Assembly: GCF_900129765.1 (NCBI RefSeq) | Contig: NZ_FQWU01000001.1 | Location: 1-64,000 of the forward strand | Length of the DNA stretch: 64,000 nt | From: Massilia sp. CF038 | GTDB taxonomy: Bacteria > Pseudomonadota > Gammaproteobacteria > Burkholderiales > Burkholderiaceae_D | Direction: 5' to 3' | Part shown: positions 19,153 to 58,281 of the stretch, piece after piece | Numbering within the stretch: position 1 is the stretch's first letter | How the letters are laid out: every line of letters starts with the position of its first letter | The notes under the pieces: generated by a model | The model's database searches: none | What the model was told of the DNA's origin: nothing | Seen by the model: only the letters and a program-made list of their open reading frames with translations | Program-made: the position numbers and the translations under genes

Positions 19153-21219
19153 ATGTCCAAAGTAGCAACCCTGCAAAGCTTGATTGGCGGCCGCTGGCTC
19201 GGCGCCGAAGCGTCCATGCCGCTGCACAGTGCCCTGAACAACGCGCTGATTTATCACACGCACGCCGAAAAGATCGACTTCGACGAAGCCGTCACCTACG
19301 CCCGCAAGACTGGCGTGCCGGCCTTGATGGCGCTCGACTTCCAGAAACGCGCGCAGATTCTCAAAGCGCTGGCGCTATACCTGATGGAGCGCAAGGAAGA
19401 GCTGTACAAGGTGTCGCACCTGACCGGCGCGACCCGTCCCGACAGCTGGGTCGACATCGAAGGCGGCATCGGCACCTTGTTCGCCTACGCCAGCATGGGC
19501 AGCCGCGAGCTGCCGTCGTCAAACGTGCTGCATGAAGGGCCGGCGCTGGCGCTGGGTAAAAATGGCGGCTTTGCCGGCACCCACATTCTGGTGCCGCGCG
19601 GCGGGCTGGCAGTGCACATCAATGCCTTCAACTTCCCGATCTGGGGCCTGCTTGAAAAATTCGCGCCCAGCTTCCTGGCGGCGATGCCCTGCATCGGCAA
19701 GCCGGCCACCGCTACCAGCTATCTGACAGAAGCGGTGGTGCGCATGATCCACGATTCCGGCTTGCTGCCGCCAGGTGCGCTGCAGCTGGTCATCGGCAGC
19801 ACCGGTGACCTGCTGGACCGCCTGGGCGGCTTTGATGCCGTGACCTTCACCGGCTCGGCCGACACTGCCGCCAAACTGCGTGTGAACAAGAACCTGATCG
19901 CCAATTCGGTCCCCTTTACTGCCGAAGCGGACTCGCTCAACTGCGCCATCCTGGGCCCGGATGTCACGCCGGACGATGTGGAATTCGACCTGTTCGTCAA
20001 GGAAGTCGCACGCGAAATGACGGGCAAGTCCGGCCAAAAGTGTACGGCCATCCGCCGTATCATCGTGCCGCACCAGCATATCGAGGCAGTGGGCGAGCGC
20101 TTGCGCCAGCGCCTGTCCAAGATTGTTGTCGGCGACCCGTCGCTGGAAGGCGTGCGCATGGGCGCCCTGGCATCCATGGATCAGCACCGCGATGTGGGCG
20201 AGCGCGTGGCCATGCTTGCGCGCGGCAACGAAACGCTGTTTGGCGCCGCCGATGGCTTTGCGCCGGTGGGTGAGGGCGCGGCAAACGGTGCCTTCTTCTC
20301 GCCAACGCTGCTGCTGTGCCGCGACGGCATGAACAACGACGCGGTGCATGATGTCGAGGCCTTTGGCCCGGTCAGCACCATGATGGGCTATGCCGATCTG
20401 GATGAGGCGCTAGCGCTGGCCGCGCGTGGCAAGGGAAGCCTGGTCAGCACGCTGGTGACGCGTGATCCGATGATCGCTGCCAAGGCGGTCCCGGTGGCTG
20501 CTGCCTCGCACGGGCGCGTGCTGGTGCTGGACCGCGAAGCGGCGGTTGATTCGACCGGGCACGGCTCACCGCTGCCCCAACTTAAGCACGGCGGTCCTGG
20601 CCGCGCCGGTGGTGGCGAAGAGCTGGGCGGCATCCGGGCGGTGCGCCACTTCCTGCAGCGCGCTGCGGTACAGGGTTCGCCCACCATGCTGGCGGCGATC
20701 ACGGGTGAGTATGTGCGCGGCGCCGCGGTGCGCGAGAGCGAGCTTCACCCATTCCGCAAGTACTTCGAGGACCTGGAGATGGGCGACTCGCTGCTGACCC
20801 ACCGGCGCACCGTGAGCGAGGCAGACATCGTCGCCTTTGGCGGCATTTCGGGCGACTTCTTCTACATGCACTTTGACGAAATCGCAGCGAAGGATTCGCA
20901 GTTCGGCAAGCGTATCGCGCACGGCTACTTCGTGCTGTCGGCGGCGGCAGGCTTGTTTGTATCGCCAGCGCCAGGGCCGGTGCTGGCCAATTACGGGCTG
21001 GATAATCTGCGCTTCATCACGCCGGTGGCCATTGGCGACACGATTCGCGCGCGCCTGACGTGCAAGCGCAAGGTGGACCGCAACCGCACCGACGAAAAGG
21101 GTGTGGGACAGGGCGTGGTGGCGTGGGATGTGCAGGTGACCAATCAGAACGATGAGCTGGTGGCTAGTTACGACATTCTGACGCTGGTGATGAAGCGCGC
21201 GCTGCACGTGGTGCAATAA
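19153..21219 (+). CDS. paaZ: PaaZ, oxepin-CoA hydrolase/semialdehyde dehydrogenase
   Basis: Bifunctional ring-opening enzyme, 688 residues (681 in E. coli). N-terminal NADP aldehyde dehydrogenase with FTAEADSLN (catalytic Glu) and KSGQKCTAIRRI (catalytic Cys). C-terminal MaoC-like hydratase (about 535-685) with the GDFFYMHFD and RIAHGYFVLSAAAG hydrolase residues. ATG 19153 is preceded by GGAGAG. The last 45 bases recur with one mismatch at 21338-21382 as part of a tandem duplication, and a REPIN-type repeat starts 8 bases after the stop. Confidence 0.96.
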   Translation: MSKVATLQSLIGGRWLGAEASMPLHSALNNALIYHTHAEKIDFDEAVTYARKTGVPALMALDFQKRAQILKALALYLMERKEELYKVSHLTGATRPDSWVDIEGGIGTLFAYASMGSRELPSSNVLHEGPALALGKNGGFAGTHILVPRGGLAVHINAFNFPIWGLLEKFAPSFLAAMPCIGKPATATSYLTEAVVRMIHDSGLLPPGALQLVIGSTGDLLDRLGGFDAVTFTGSADTAAKLRVNKNLIANSVPFTAEADSLNCAILGPDVTPDDVEFDLFVKEVAREMTGKSGQKCTAIRRIIVPHQHIEAVGERLRQRLSKIVVGDPSLEGVRMGALASMDQHRDVGERVAMLARGNETLFGAADGFAPVGEGAANGAFFSPTLLLCRDGMNNDAVHDVEAFGPVSTMMGYADLDEALALAARGKGSLVSTLVTRDPMIAAKAVPVAAASHGRVLVLDREAAVDSTGHGSPLPQLKHGGPGRAGGGEELGGIRAVRHFLQRAAVQGSPTMLAAITGEYVRGAAVRESELHPFRKYFEDLEMGDSLLTHRRTVSEADIVAFGGISGDFFYMHFDEIAAKDSQFGKRIAHGYFVLSAAAGLFVSPAPGPVLANYGLDNLRFITPVAIGDTIRARLTCKRKVDRNRTDEKGVGQGVVAWDVQVTNQNDELVASYDILTLVMKRALHVVQ

Positions 21220-21226
21220 ACCCACC

Positions 21227-21311
21227 ACATCGCCCTCGCGAAGGCGGGGGCCCATAACGCTGAACAACTTCGGTGCTGTGTCATAGGCCCCCGCCTGCGC
21301 GAGGGCGATGT
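21227..21311. repeat. REPIN-type palindromic repeat A
   Basis: Two inverted REP arms: ACATCGCCCTCGCGAAGGCG at the left end, and CGCCTGCGCGAGGGCGATGT at the right, separated by a short spacer with ACGCTGAACAACTTCGG. Total 85 bp. Lies just after paaZ and could fold into a long transcript-end hairpin. Confidence 0.9.
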
Positions 21312-21390
21312 AGGTTCTGCCAGTGCCTGAACTATTCATTCTGACACTGGTGATGAAGCGCGCGCTGCACGTGGTGCAATAAGCACCACC

Positions 21391-21477
21391 ACATCGTCCT
21401 CGCGAAGGCGGGGACTCATACCACACTATCGAAGTTGTTCAGCGTGCTATAGGCCCCCGCCTTCGCGAGGGCGATGT
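21391..21477. repeat. REPIN-type palindromic repeat B
   Basis: Second copy, 87 bp, arms starting ACATCGTCCTCGCGAAGGCG and ending CGCCTTCGCGAGGGCGATGT. Its right arm is read as the last codons of the minus-strand EAL gene, whose stop (21447-21449) lies inside the repeat. Confidence 0.9.
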
Positions 21478-30704: not shown

Positions 30705-30806
30705 ACATCGTCCTCGCGGAGGCGGCGGTCCGACGACTCGGGACCCATGGCACAGTGACCGACTTCGATACCTGTCTATGGGTCCCCGCCTGCGCGAGGA
30801 CGATGT
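30705..30806. repeat. REPIN-type repeat C
   Basis: Left arm ACATCGTCCTCGCGGAGGCG with a 15-base insertion (CGGTCCGACGACTCG) after GGCGG, then GGACCCATGGCAC; right arm TATGGGTCCCCGCCTGCGCG ending GACGATGT. 102 bp. Its left arm is a perfect 49-bp inverted match to the right arm of repeat D. Confidence 0.88.
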
Positions 30807-30831: not shown

Positions 30832-30946
30832 CATCGTCCTCGCGAAGGCGGGGACCTATAGCACCTCGGCTTCGTGTTATTTTGCTTCTAAGCTCAGGTG
30901 CCATGGGTCCCGAGTCGTCGGACCGCCGCCTCCGCGAGGACGATGT
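30832..30946. repeat. REPIN-type repeat D
   Basis: Left arm CATCGTCCTCGCGAAGGCGG (30832 on), right arm 30898-30946 carrying the same 15-base insertion as repeat C but in inverted orientation. 30705-30753 and 30898-30946 are exact reverse complements over 49 bp. The unit ends 10 bases before the argH stop codon. Confidence 0.88.
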
Positions 30947-41493: not shown

Positions 41494-41580
41494 ACATCGT
41501 CCTCGCGAAGGCGGGGACCTATTCCACGCTGAACAACTTCGGAAACGTGGAATAGGTCCCCGCCTTCGCGAGGACGATGT
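41494..41580. repeat. REPIN-type repeat E, perfect palindrome arms
   Basis: 87 bp: left arm 41494-41528 and right arm 41546-41580 are exact reverse complements over 35 bases, with a 17-base loop (CTGAACAACTTCGGAAA). The copy lies between the cyanophycinase stop and the M64 gene start and could end or stabilise the first transcript. Confidence 0.93.
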
Positions 41581-54173: not shown

Positions 54174-54240
54174 TCAGGAACACCACAATTTTGTTACAAC
54201 TTTGAATCGTGCGCCCGGTGGCAATTGCTATATTGAAGCC

Positions 54241-55221
54241 ATGCCAGATACAGACAAGCCCGACAGACGCGGCCCCCCTACAGAAAAAGACGGTGTACCC
54301 CACGCGACGCGGGTACCCGACCGGCGGGCGGCCGATGCGCCACCGCGCTACCTGAAAGTCAACGACACGCCGCTGTCGCTGGCCAAGCGGGTATTCAGTT
54401 CGCGCTGGCGCGCGGTACGCGACAAGATCGGCCGCGACTTCATGCGGCGCACGTTGCGCATTGGCGTGTCGGCCCGGATATTTCATCCCGAAGCGGGCGC
54501 GACCGGCCTGCGCAGCAAAAATCTGCAATATCTCGAAGAATCGATTGCCCAGTGGGTCATGTCGCGCGACGTGCTGGTGTTCATGGTGCCGACGGTGAAT
54601 ACCAACGGCCTTCTGCATCCCAGCAATATTACTCTTCGCCACTACGCGAAACACCTGGACGGCTTGGTGCTGCAGGGTGGGGCGGACGTGTCGCCGCAGA
54701 CGTATTCCGAGTCGCCCACGCGGCCCGAGTGGAGCGGCGACCGCGCGCGCGACGTCTACGAACTGGAACTGCTGCATGAGTTTGTAGACGCTGGCAAGCC
54801 GGTGCTGGGCATTTGCCGCGGCTGCCAACTGATCAACGTGGCTTTTGGCGGTACCTTGTACCAGGATGTGGCGACCAATGTGCCTGACGCGCTGGCGCAC
54901 GTGCACAGCGATTACGACGCGCACCGGCATGCGATTCTGTTCCCGCAAGGTTCATCGCTGGCGCGCATGTTCCCCAAGGTGCAGCGGCCGATCGTCAATT
55001 CGATCCACCATCAGGCGGTCAAGGATCTGGGGCGCGACATCATGGTCGAAGCCGTGTCGGAACCGGACGGGATTGTGGAGGCGATTCGCTACCAGCGGGC
55101 CAGTTTCGTGATGGGCTTGCAGTGGCATCCGGAGTTTCACCGGGCCGGCGGCGTCGATCTGCTCGATTGCACGCCCATCCTCGACGAGTTCCTGCGCGCC
55201 GCCCGCGAAACCCGGCTGTAA
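54241..55221 (+). CDS. class I glutamine amidotransferase, PuuD/gamma-glutamyl hydrolase-like
   Basis: 326-residue peptidase C26-type protein. The catalytic triad is visible: Cys in VLGICRGCQLINVAFGGTLYQDV, His/Glu in MGLQWHPEFH. DVSPQTYSESPTRPEWSGDRARDVYELELLHEF matches the PuuD family, which hydrolyses gamma-glutamyl-GABA in putrescine breakdown. An extra basic N-terminal part of about 75 residues precedes the domain. ATG 54241 is used; the upstream ATG at 54202 is in frame. Its product type complements the YbdK-like gamma-glutamyl ligase encoded beyond the GIY-YIG gene. Confidence 0.88.
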   Translation: MPDTDKPDRRGPPTEKDGVPHATRVPDRRAADAPPRYLKVNDTPLSLAKRVFSSRWRAVRDKIGRDFMRRTLRIGVSARIFHPEAGATGLRSKNLQYLEESIAQWVMSRDVLVFMVPTVNTNGLLHPSNITLRHYAKHLDGLVLQGGADVSPQTYSESPTRPEWSGDRARDVYELELLHEFVDAGKPVLGICRGCQLINVAFGGTLYQDVATNVPDALAHVHSDYDAHRHAILFPQGSSLARMFPKVQRPIVNSIHHQAVKDLGRDIMVEAVSEPDGIVEAIRYQRASFVMGLQWHPEFHRAGGVDLLDCTPILDEFLRAARETRL

Positions 55222-55265: not shown

Positions 55266-55683
55266 ACATCGTCCTCGCGAAGGCGGGGACCCATGCCACG
55301 CTGACCTAAGCCGTAAAATCAGCGTACAGGTCGCGCCATGTCGGATTACTTTTTGAAATCAGCGAAATCTTCCACGCGCGCTTGAATTTCTTGATCCGCT
55401 TCTCGCGAGCCACGGCCTCCATCACATCGCCGTGAATCTCATACCAAACAAGCCGGTGCACGTGGTATGTACTTGTAAAACACTCCAGGAATTCTTCGCG
55501 GTGTTCCCATACGCGGCGTACCAGGTCGGTTGAAACGCCGGTGTAGAGCGTACCGTAGGGCTTGCTTGCCATGATGTAGACGTAGCTGGGCTGGTCCATC
55601 CAGACATGGTGCGGCCCCGGGCTTGATCACAGTTTGGTGCGGATCAAACGTGGGATGGGCCCCCGCCTTCGCGAGGGCGATGT
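55266..55683. mobile_element. REP-bounded GIY-YIG element (putative autonomous REP element)
   Basis: Left terminus 55266-55294 starts ACATCGTCCTCGCGAAGGCG; right terminus 55655-55683 ends CGCCTTCGCGAGGGCGATGT. The two 29-base termini are inverted repeats matching at 27 positions, and similarity continues a few bases inward (GCCACGCTGA against CCCACGTTTGA). Between them lies only the GIY-YIG gene. These termini are the same half-sites that make up the six REPIN repeats elsewhere in the window, in which they are only 17-60 bases apart. Element status is inferred from this arrangement; no target-site duplication could be established. Confidence 0.6.
55306..55599 (-). CDS. GIY-YIG endonuclease family protein (COG2827-like)
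   Basis: 97-residue single-domain GIY-YIG protein. The signature reads YVYIMASKPYGTLYTGVS, a usual variant of GIY-x10-YIG in small UPF0213/YhbQ-like proteins. Next come the catalytic Arg region DLVRRVWEHREEF, the HRLVWYEIHGDVMEAVAREKRIKKF helix that supplies the metal-binding Glu, and WRDLYADF. All key residues look intact. The gene lies inside a pair of REP half-sites; the stop codon sits just inside the left half-site. Its role in repeat mobility is a hypothesis; alternatives are a solo DNA-repair-like nuclease that REPs happen to flank. Confidence 0.88.
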   Translation of the reverse strand: MDQPSYVYIMASKPYGTLYTGVSTDLVRRVWEHREEFLECFTSTYHVHRLVWYEIHGDVMEAVAREKRIKKFKRAWKISLISKSNPTWRDLYADFTA

Positions 55684-55790
55684 GGTGGGCGCTTAAGCGA
55701 TGTGGGGGTGCTTAAGCGATGTGGGGGTGCTTAAGCGATGTGGTGGTGCTTAAGCGATGTGGTGGGCGCTCAAGCGATGTGGTGGCTACG
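55677..55790. repeat. 19-20-bp tandem array built from the REP terminus
   Basis: Five full units and one partial: GCGATGTGGTGGGCGCTTAA (55677-55696), GCGATGTGGGGGTGCTTAA twice, GCGATGTGGTGGTGCTTAA, GCGATGTGGTGGGCGCTCAA (55754-55773), then GCGATGTGGTGG. The first unit overlaps the right end (GCGATGT) of the GIY-YIG element; the last runs into the stop codon of the YbdK-like gene at 55786. Confidence 0.92.
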
Positions 55791-56907
55791 CGTCGCCGCG
55801 GAATTTGTGGATGGCGGCATTGACCATGCCTTCGGCGCTGCCCTGCTCTGCATACTGCCGGCGCAGGTAGGTCGAATCGCTTGAATCCTGCGCTGCCGCC
55901 GTCAAGTGACGCAGGGCGCCCAGCGAACCCAGGGCTTCGCCATGCGGCTCCATCTTGCGCAGCGTCGTCAGAATATCCTCGCGCAGCGACATCGTCTCGT
56001 ACGTTTTCGGATGCGTGATCGCGCCGTCCAGACCGAAGCGGCATGCCTGGAAACGGTTGAAGTTGTAGACCAGGTAGTCGTCTTCCACGGGCGGCTCTTC
56101 ACGCCGTTCCAGCAGGTGGCGGCACAAGGCCTGCAAATACCCTGCCAGCGCCGCGGCCCGCTCCACCGTCAGCGGCGTGTCGCACACGCGCAGTTCGATG
56201 GTGCCGTATTCCGGCTTGGGCCGGATGTCCCAGTAAAAGTCCTTCATGCTCTTGATGATGCCGGTGCCTTCCATCTTGGCGAAGTAGACGTTGGCAAATT
56301 CATCCCAGGTCAGGGTGAACGGCGCCCGTCCGCTCATGGGGAAGGCAAACACGGAATTGAGCCGGGCCGAATCGAACAGACTGTCGTGGCCCTGGACGAA
56401 AGGTGAGGAGGCCGACAGGGCAATGAAGTGCGGGATGTAGCGGCTGAGCGAATGGAGCAGGAACATGGCGTCGTCGCCCGAGGCGCAGCCAATGTGCACG
56501 TGTTGTCCGAACACGGTGAACTGCTTGGCCAGGTAGCCGTACAGCGAGGACAGTTCGCGAAAGCGCGGCTTTTCGAAAATCTTCTGTTCCGACCAATGCT
56601 GAAACGGATGGGTGCCGCCACCGGACAGGCCGATGTTGAGCTGGTCGCCTGCGGCCACCAGCAGGTCGCGAATTTCCAGCAGCTCGGCCAGCAGCGGTGC
56701 GTGCTGCGAATGCACGCTCGAATTAATCTCGATCATGCTCTCGGCAATCTCGGGTGTGACGTTGCCGGGGAAGGGTTTCTTGCCCAGTAAATGAAGCAGG
56801 TCAGGGCTGGACGCGGTCAGGTCGAAGTCCGACAGGCTGACCAGCTGCAGTTCCAGTTCGACCCCGAAGGTCAGCGCCTGCGACTGCGCGAAGGGTTCCA
56901 ATGGCAT
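55786..56907 (-). CDS. ybdK: YbdK-like carboxylate-amine ligase (GCS2 family)
   Basis: ATP-dependent gamma-glutamyl ligase-like enzyme, 373 residues (E. coli YbdK 372). GCS2 features: [20 protein letters not shown] with the metal-binding Glu residues, [45 protein letters not shown], and [22 protein letters not shown]. YbdK has weak glutamate-cysteine ligase activity; the true substrate is uncertain. ATG 56907 has GGAGA upstream and is one base after the antiporter stop, so the two are coupled. The gene terminates in the REP-derived tandem array. Confidence 0.9.
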
Positions 56908-56908
56908 C

Positions 56909-58087
56909 TTATTCTCCGTGTGATTCTTTGGCCCAGACCAGCGCACGCTGGATCAGGATCGGACCGAACACTTCGAGCAGCAGCGTCACGCCAGCCATGG
57001 CGCGCAGTTCTTCGGCCAGGTTCACGCCGCGCAGACGCGCATGTTCGAGCAGCAGGATGACAAACACCGACACCGGCGCCAGCGCCAGGCCGGTGAGCGC
57101 ACCCTTGCGCCAGGAGATGCCCGACAGCTCGGAGAACGCGGTCACGCCGACGATTTTGGTCAGCATGCGCACGGCCACCACCGCCAGTGCCAGCGCGGTG
57201 CCGCTGGTGATGGTGCGCCAGTCAAGGGTGGACGCTGCAAACACGAACAACAGTACGGTAAGCAGTTCGCCCAACGCGCCAAAGTTGCGTTGCGCCTGGG
57301 TGAAGGCCACACGCCGGTGACGCGCTGTCAGGCCAAAAGCCAGGGTGGCCACGACGGGCGAAAGCTGGGTCGTGTAGGTAACTGCCACCAGCAGGATCAC
57401 CGCCAGCGCGAAGCCGACCGTAGCATCCTTGGACAGGTTGCCCATGTGGCGCAGCACAGCCGGTACCACCAGGCCAAACACGGCGCCCGTCAGCGCCGAC
57501 AGCGCCAGTGCGACCAGGCTGTTGAGCGTGGCGTCGCCAATGTCTTCGGAGCTGCGGAAGATCCAGAAGCCGATAATGACGTTGAAGGTAAACACCGACA
57601 GCACGCAGTTAATCGCTGTCAGATGCAGGGCGCGTTCCGTCACCTGGCCGGAGCTGCGCATCTCGTTAATCACGCGCACCACCGTGGCCGGGGAGGTCGA
57701 CATGCCGAGGGCAGCGAGCATCAGCGCCGTCATGGTCGACGTGTTGAATGCCAGTGCGACGAAGTAGATGGCGAAGAACGTACCGACTGCTTCGACCAGT
57801 GCTGCCATGCCGAACCAGGGATTGGTGCGGATCCAGCGCAAGTTGATACGGTAACCCAGTTCAAACAGGATCAGGCCGAATCCGACGTCGGCCATGACCA
57901 GCACGATGCCCGGATCCGTTTGTGGCAATACGCCGATTTGCGACGAGGCGAGCAGGAAGCCGGCAATGCCATAGAAGCTGATCTTTGGCAGTCCGGTCCA
58001 GCGCTGACCGTATTCTCCCGCGAGCCAGGCGATGCAAATCGCTACGGGCCAGGAGAGGTCGGTCAGGATCTGCAGGAGATCTGGCAT
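56909..58087 (-). CDS. CPA2-type cation:proton antiporter
   Basis: 392-residue membrane protein with about 12-13 helices of the sodium/hydrogen exchanger (PF00999) fold. [59 protein letters not shown] (the STSPATV ion site) and [17 protein letters not shown] are visible. No RCK/TrkA-N domain is attached. Operon with ybdK; since KefB/KefC-type CPA2 proteins are gated by glutathione compounds, a link between a gamma-glutamyl ligase and this transporter is conceivable but unproven. Confidence 0.88.
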
Positions 58088-58195: not shown

Positions 58196-58281
58196 ACATC
58201 GCCCTCGCGCAGGCGGGGGGCTATACCATGCTGCCGGATTCGGTCAGATGGCATGGGCCCCCGCCTTCGCGAGGGCGATGT
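58196..58281. repeat. REPIN-type repeat F
   Basis: 86 bp. Left arm ACATCGCCCTCGCGCAGGCG, right arm CGCCTTCGCGAGGGCGATGT, loop includes ACCATGCTGCCGGATTCGGT. Followed 17 bases on by a solo right terminus, GCGCGAGGGCGATGT (58298-58312), just before the VWA gene stop at 58317. Confidence 0.88.

Follow-up and report, generated by a model that had tools for sequence, protein, structure and literature searches.

The 418-bp unit described here, found in the first 64,000 nucleotides of contig NZ_FQWU01000001.1 of Massilia sp. CF038 (hereafter the window), consists of an intact gene for a small GIY-YIG nuclease enclosed by two inverted REP arms, and it is probably the autonomous element of a REP transposition system served by that nuclease. 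The association between such genes and REP arms is not a coincidence: it recurs in other bacterial lineages with different hairpin stems, and the presence of the gene is correlated with the number of REPs in the genome.

The two termini of the unit agree, as inverted repeats, at 27 of 29 positions (55,266–55,294 against the reverse complement of 55,655–55,683; two mismatches), and the minus-strand open reading frame (ORF) between them is intact over its 97 codons for amino acids and ends in a stop codon 11 bp inward of the left terminus. These features had been read correctly in the first-pass annotation, as had the recurrence of the arms in six REPIN-type pairs elsewhere in the window (Table 1). 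Each arm has the layout CATC-GTCCTCGC-GAAG-GCGGGGAC-CCA, that is, an unpaired tag of four bases, then a stem of 8 bp closed by a four-base loop, and finally a CCA tail, and the tags of both arms of the unit point outwards. The unit is located between two ORFs, which we take to encode a glutamine amidotransferase-like peptidase on the left and a YbdK-like glutamate-cysteine ligase on the right; the ORF map and the corresponding loci of relatives place it in neither an intron, an intein nor a protein-coding target. A 19-bp tandem array (window positions 55,685–55,785) adjoins the right end of the unit, and its copies include GCGATGTGG, which is the REP's outer end; the array looks as though this terminus had undergone repeated copying.

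Table 1. The REP-enclosed GIY-YIG unit, its neighboring genes and the REPINs of the window
Feature	Position	Strand	Description or basis
Whole unit, REP arm + GIY-YIG gene + inverted REP arm	55266..55683		418 bp
REP arm 3' of the gene	55266..55294	+	CATC tag outward, 8-bp stem with T.G wobble, GAAG loop, CCA tail
GIY-YIG nuclease gene, intact, 97 aa	55306..55599	-	ORF, Pfam match
REP arm 5' of the gene, inverted, tag outward	55655..55683	-	Sequence comparison
Left neighbor gene	54202..55221	+	ORF; defines the orthologous site
Right neighbor gene	55786..56946	-	ORF; defines the orthologous site
REPIN, same family, no gene	21227..21311		Arm match
REPIN, same family	21391..21477		Arm match
REPIN, same family	30706..30805		Arm match
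REPIN, same family	30832..30945		Arm match
REPIN, arms 35/35 complementary	41494..41580		Arm match; inner flanks CCACGCTGA / CCACGTTT, similar to those of the GIY element
REPIN, same family	58196..58281		Arm match

Across the 5.66 Mb of the genome, the REP half-site pattern had 720 matches, whereas its reversed control had none. Within a 464-kb sample, composed of the window and 20 stretches of 20 kb picked where the genome-wide pattern listed sites, there are 126 half-sites and 53 inverted pairs, of which 31 are 84–85 bp long. The second pair of the stem (5–22), which the sequence pattern had left nearly open by admitting any base on one side and A or G on the other, is T-A in 59 and C-G in 57 of 127 half-sites, with T-G in 6, C-A in none and other combinations in 5; the T-A/C-G exchange amounts to a paired change on both sides and thus reveals a real hairpin family. 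Of the 127 sampled half-sites, 119 have CATC as their tag and 4 have CGTC, and the arms of the unit likewise carry CATC rather than the commoner CGTC, with a T.G wobble in the hairpin. At their inner flanks, the REPs of the genome agree with the GIY element at a mean of 5.7 of 10 positions, compared with 2.6 of 10 for the outer flanks, and the consensus ACCACG found just inside the REPs is present in both inner flanks of the unit. At 21,174–21,255 and again at 21,337–21,419, a 46-base stretch ending in TAA (copies 98% identical, 163 bp apart) has been duplicated along with the adjoining REPIN arm.

Most REPs fall into two classes, GTAG and CGTC (Di Nocera, De Gregorio and Rocco 2013, PMC3733652). 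The CGTC superfamily is characterized by an unpaired CGTC, TGTC or CCTC tag, a stem of 8–9 bp, a loop of 4–5 bases and a CCA-type tail; its members are widespread, chiefly in alphaproteobacteria, include the dRS3 repeats of Neisseria (CGTC-1), and, as that survey concluded, are apparently without a dedicated transposase. The repeats of the window share with the CGTC REPs the 8-bp stem, the 4-base loop, the CCA tail, the arrangement in inverted pairs and the large copy number, but differ in the tag, which is mostly CATC in this genome, and in the presence of a nuclease gene between the REPs. By their sequence, they fit the CGTC-tagged class (CGTC-1 type), with a variant tag.

The 97-aa protein matches the GIY-YIG family of Pfam (PF01541) with 42.7 bits (gathering score 22.6, E 7e-11); this is its only Pfam match, with no HUH/Y1 tyrosine transposase encoded between the REPs, and none of the NCBIfam models matched it at E 0.001. 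PF01541 has two matches in the genome, the gene of the unit and a 635-aa frame that we took for UvrC. In GIY-YIG nucleases, catalysis depends on Tyr, Arg and Glu residues, and in an alignment of 26 GIY proteins G15, Y18, G20, R28, H32 and E65, among others, are invariant, with Y7 conserved in at least 90%. A gonococcal protein is 52.7% identical to the one from the window, and its gene lies within an array of dRS3 (CGTC-1) repeats; one gonococcal record among the loci (L174, NZ_CP119140.1, 2.17 Mb) is filed among plasmids and, by its size, looks like the chromosome. A sequence search of the PDB yielded as its sole sensible match the UPF0213 GIY-YIG protein BH0048 (1zg2; E 0.005), which is likewise a single-domain protein, the WD40 matches in the same search being judged repeat artefacts. 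The GIY protein had no match in PHROGs at 0.001, and a search of phage records at 1e-6 found no relative of it. A function as a defense gene was considered and rejected, the matches in PADLOC being weak and partial (best E 0.022 for the window protein and 0.0026 for the gonococcal one).

To establish how general the arrangement is, relatives were collected by protein search alone of genome contigs, which provided 67 loci spread over alpha-, beta-, gamma- and deltaproteobacteria and scattered other groups. Arms were scored by inverted complementarity between the 250 bp on each side of the gene, with a threshold of 18 or more, at 65 loci (L038 lies near a contig end and L053 has an unreadable flank). 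This threshold was reached by 36 of the 65 GIY genes versus none of 5612 placements drawn at random, with the same spacing, from these loci, and by 35 of 64 GIY genes versus 4 of 750 other ORFs (Fisher 3e-39), leaving 29 of the 64 below it; the link to matching inverted termini, for which the first-pass annotation had recommended a search around related genes, is a general one. Outward CGTC-type REPs on both sides were found for 30 of the 64 GIY genes versus 6 of the 750 other ORFs. Many of the arms recovered by complementarity scoring, which presupposes no particular shape, have the form of CGTC REPs; the hairpin detector, by comparison, also fires on shuffled sequence (85 versus 362 hits) and, because the sets that it produces demand pairing, stem pairing in them is no evidence. 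Within the family of the window, where 57 of 59 loci were scored (L129 and L130 have no hit with the window protein), 28 of the 57 GIY genes display a high arm score, outward REPs or both and 29 display neither, although many of the latter still have a REP on one side.

The stems of the arms vary by lineage (for example, CCCGC/GCGGG, CCGGC/GCCGG and CGGGCTTGACCCG), and a single genome with three GIY paralogues (G151) has a different stem for each of them, in the third case on just one side. Arms are alike within an element: among 53 elements with both arms, agreement is 0.91 within and 0.66 between elements, and the more similar two proteins are, the more similar their arms tend to be (Mantel r 0.38, equaled in 0 of 2000 permutations), a signal that in part reflects the relatedness of the hosts. 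This set was compiled without L001, L002, L019, L020, L087, L185–L206 and the duplicates L012, L115 and L150. L233 (G579) contains two GIY genes in the same orientation, 1039 bp apart and without a difference over 270 bp, and the detector reported no CGTC REP near them; in L012 and L020, a tandem array with self-matches at a 50-bp step adjoins the GIY unit about 160–1020 bp downstream of the gene.

The number of REPs was then compared with the presence of the gene, as the first-pass annotation had advised, and the two proved to be correlated, within genera as well, and more weakly across the class. In both data sets a single CGTC-1 REP pattern was counted, so that other REP types are undercounted. 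Of the 245 genomes sampled from the window's family, a GIY match at 1e-5 was obtained in 49, a number that takes in decayed copies; the median number of REPs is 111 in these 49 genomes and 0 in the 196 without a match, and at least 30 REPs are present in 41 of the 49 versus 17 of the 196. When the gene label was shuffled within genera, the observed difference was reached in 0 of 20,000 trials. When the comparison was repeated for the class (369 genomes; query, the gonococcal protein), at least 10 REPs were present in 37 of 95 genomes with the gene versus 25 of 274 without it, with an odds ratio smaller (6) than that in the family (54).

There are exceptions in both directions. Eleven of the 245 family genomes have at least 50 REPs yet no match to the GIY gene; in a PF01541 search, eight of these have a single match of UvrC size (G001, G051, G052, G055, G128, G182, G219 and G233), two have another GIY frame of single-domain size (G015 and G189), and one has two weak extra hits in longer frames (G072). 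In the class sample, 12 genomes without a GIY hit have at least 30 REPs. Conversely, seven family genomes with the gene have fewer than 20 REPs, and in G310 the REP pattern matches only twice, both times flanking the GIY gene. REP families without the gene had been put forward in advance as a sign that the association is coincidental; they occur, and weaken a one-to-one rule, while the association itself stands. Repeats can persist once the gene is gone, and arms can degenerate.

RAYT-type genes, recognized by the Y1_Tnp domain, are present in 228 of the 245 family genomes and are unrelated to REP number (p 0.30); among the 17 genomes that lack Y1_Tnp, 6 have at least 30 REPs, and 5 of these 6 have the GIY gene. 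The genome of the window encodes three such genes (L003, L004 and L005), each with its own terminal repeats, the sequence of which is unlike that of the present REP family, although one REPIN of this family lies upstream of one of them. The combination of other termini and the lack of a relation with Y1_Tnp led us to reject RAYT as the cause of the correlation with REP number. The termini of L003 include GGGGTCAG, which fits the GGGGWSAS motif described in PMC3733652 for TIRYT termini.

A GIY match was obtained in 13 of 17 genomes of the genus, and the flanking DNA places the gene at no fewer than four sites: that of the window, where it is also found in G014; a second site, denoted site B, common to eight genomes; a third in two genomes; and a fourth in one. 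In that close relative (G014; L017 and L102), the copy at the window's site has decayed: in-frame stops interrupt it, and its inverted arms, 42 bases long, are altered. As a rule there is one copy of the gene per genome, as in the genome of the window. At site B, it has been vertically inherited in the eight genomes, and the arms are often absent or one-sided, which resembles the behavior of RAYT genes, known to be single-copy and long-lived. Orthologous GIY genes at one locus without REP termini, which the first-pass annotation had regarded as grounds for abandoning the association, thus do occur, several copies at site B lacking one or both arms; these copies, too, weaken a strict one-to-one rule without turning the association into a coincidence.

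The site occupied in the window was followed through 14 further relatives that have its right-hand gene, 13 of them with the left-hand gene nearby, and the GIY protein is encoded in none of these 14 loci. Three have a complete REPIN at the site and some a single recognizable or degraded REP, whereas no REP was seen in others (for example, L096, L098 and L099). In the empty-site comparison, which involved 13 relatives without the gene, the sequences have diverged too far for an exact boundary. Among the polymorphic Sinorhizobium REPs compared, no target-site duplication or clean insertion boundary was found; the S. medicae case looks like a tandem change and the S. meliloti case like a complex replacement. 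Two S. medicae megaplasmids (L205 and L206) carry a 3'-truncated GIY gene with its 5' REP, which was rejected as an amplified derivative because it occupies the same site in both strains and looks like an old relic.

Full and internally deleted units with the same ends coexist in one genome in G427 and, for a single shortened unit, in S. meliloti. In S. meliloti Ak57, a complete REP-GIY-REP unit of 375 bp is accompanied, at a distance of 122 bp, by a unit of 161 bp; the latter has the same kind of ends, with only the last 27 residues of a GIY gene left. In G427, one complete 362-bp unit is accompanied by 13 shortened copies, 134–214 bp as cut, some of these lengths depending on contig ends and on the cutting points. 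Nine of the 13 share the same junction, with unit position 33 joined to position 220, and three of these nine have a second deletion; three of the 13 end at contig ends and one has an altered left arm. The flanks of the G427 derivatives are partly repeated as well, so that the copies lie in larger mosaic blocks (L234, L236 and L237 have different neighboring ORFs and shared stretches of at most about 260 bp), and their spread need not have been by one-by-one transposition.

Across the window and loci L001–L184, we counted 90 outward REP pairs, 87 of them distinct; an earlier count of 108 had included duplicate loci and stretches of the window's own genome (G000). Of the distinct pairs, 34 enclose a full gene, 1 a clear remnant and 2 doubtful ones, and 50 have no detectable gene, which means that most REPINs do not reveal their origin; outside G427, there is thus one clear deleted unit. 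L032 and L085 were not counted as deleted units, the REP call being doubtful and inside the gene or the frame broken. Also left uncounted were three similar but not quite identical stretches of 1186 bp in G271 (L225, L226 and L227), with the same REP and partial GIY gene at the same positions, which probably represent a larger duplicated segment. The proposal that short repeats are non-autonomous derivatives is accordingly borne out in G427 and in one further case, but not in the genome of the window, where no shortened unit with remnants of the gene turned up.

Three known systems offer close parallels. The REP-RAYT system (REPtrons and REPINs) has a small nuclease gene between inverted REPs, often in a single copy, and many gene-less REPINs, but its nuclease is a different protein: RAYT belongs to the HUH Y1 tyrosine transposases and serves REPs with a GTAG tag (see PMC3733652), whereas the protein here belongs to the GIY-YIG family and the REPs are of the CGTC type. 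The unit works like a REP-RAYT element but is not a member of that system, because the tyrosine transposase is absent. MITEs and their parent insertion sequences also share termini, and internal-deletion derivatives beside a full copy, as in G427, are typical of that relationship; unlike an insertion sequence, the GIY unit has no DDE or tyrosine transposase, and target duplication was not found.

The third parallel is with Ssn, which Chenal et al. reportedly described in Nature Communications in 2025 as widespread site-specific single-strand nucleases of the GIY-YIG superfamily. The Neisseria enzyme is said to cut a sequence present in hundreds of copies and to modulate transformation, and the gonococcal relative in the dRS3 array is presumably Ssn, with dRS3 as its target. 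The likeness consists in a single-domain GIY-YIG protein paired with a repeated cognate sequence and in the homology to the gonococcal protein; the Ssn work reportedly focuses on cutting and transformation, whereas the present analysis concerns the placement of the gene within a REPIN, the correlation with REP number, the turnover of sites and the deletion derivatives, some of which may be reported there as well. That the arrangement had gone undescribed, as the first-pass annotation supposed, is therefore doubtful; if the Ssn work is as reported, the pairing of nuclease and repeat is already in print, and the reading as a mobile element is the new part. Among the matches listed in a search of the open literature, which leaves subscription papers and preprints mostly outside, there was no statement of GIY-YIG genes between REPs or mobilizing them, nor was there one in passages of PMC1564403, PMC9465073, PMC12306157, PMC6006769 and PMC5082802.

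The principal alternative, possible although we consider it distinctly less probable than not, is that an Ssn-type nuclease uses the REPs as cutting sites for a housekeeping role, such as limiting or shaping DNA uptake and recombination, with the REPs accumulating through the usefulness of cutting or through local duplications that it sets off and with the gene being no transposition enzyme. The reported effect of Ssn on transformation, the location of the 52.7% identical gonococcal relative in a dRS3/CGTC-1 array and the vertical inheritance at site B are all in keeping with such a role, which, taken alone, leaves unexplained why the gene changes site together with its arms, why the arms match within each element and why deletion derivatives have the same ends. 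Gene homing, in which the nuclease would cut gene-less REPINs and the gene would be copied in by repair, in the manner of homing endonuclease genes, would account for the complete REPIN that three relatives have at a site where the window has a REPIN plus the gene, and for the inner flanks common to REPINs and the GIY element. Yet the gene has remained single-copy in a genome with about 700 REP half-sites available, and G427 and S. meliloti exhibit the opposite direction, with the gene lost from the unit, which makes homing very improbable.

A passenger gene caught between two REPs, with a RAYT or another transposase acting in trans on the CGTC REPs, could draw on the prevalence of RAYT-type genes in the family (228 of 245 genomes) and on the REPIN upstream of one of them in the window's genome. 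We regard this as improbable, given the other terminal repeats of all three RAYT-type genes of that genome, the lack of a relation between Y1_Tnp and REP number, the GIY gene in five of the six REP-rich genomes without Y1_Tnp, and the tyrosine transposase genes of the named CGTC-positive species, none of which is flanked by CGTC REPs according to PMC3733652. Finally, with 720 half-sites in the genome, some small gene might be expected to fall between two REPs through intergenic crowding; this explanation is hardly credible, being refuted by the control ORFs (4 of 750 at the threshold) and the random placements (0 of 5612) and at odds with the recurrence of the association with different stems in other lineages.

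We therefore return to a REP transposition system served by the GIY-YIG nuclease. The proposal of the first-pass annotation that a GIY-YIG protein replaces RAYT gains from the association, from the REP numbers and from the failure of RAYT to explain them, the mobilizing role itself being what we infer from these. The hairpin flanking the gene is most probably what the nuclease recognizes, and the hundreds of gene-less REPs and REPINs appear from their sequences to be non-autonomous relatives, some of which, in other genomes, are demonstrably internal-deletion derivatives. Where the DNA becomes single-stranded, on the lagging-strand template, during repair or in DNA uptake, each REP would fold into a hairpin, a substrate suggested by the Ssn work reported for the Neisseria relative. 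The nuclease would bind the REP and cut at or beside the unpaired tag; this could free the REPIN or the whole unit, or allow it to be copied, and host repair would join or recombine it at another place. All matching REPs would be served in trans by this one nuclease, as GTAG REPs are by RAYT.

More broadly, we lean, by a small degree, towards the view that the CGTC REP superfamily has its long-missing dedicated mobilizers in single-domain GIY-YIG (Ssn-like) nucleases and that its REPINs, dRS3 included, are deletion derivatives. If true, this would amount to a second, independent kind of REP transposition, with REP-nuclease-REP units as the autonomous form, and a REP-cutting enzyme would have been recruited twice, from the HUH fold and from the GIY-YIG fold. 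It would also join two literatures, on REP evolution and on Ssn nucleases. With a candidate enzyme, matched targets and a correlation within genera, the question of the CGTC transposase becomes directly testable, and the many natural enzyme-hairpin pairs with differing stems would provide a means to study how a small nuclease reads its site.
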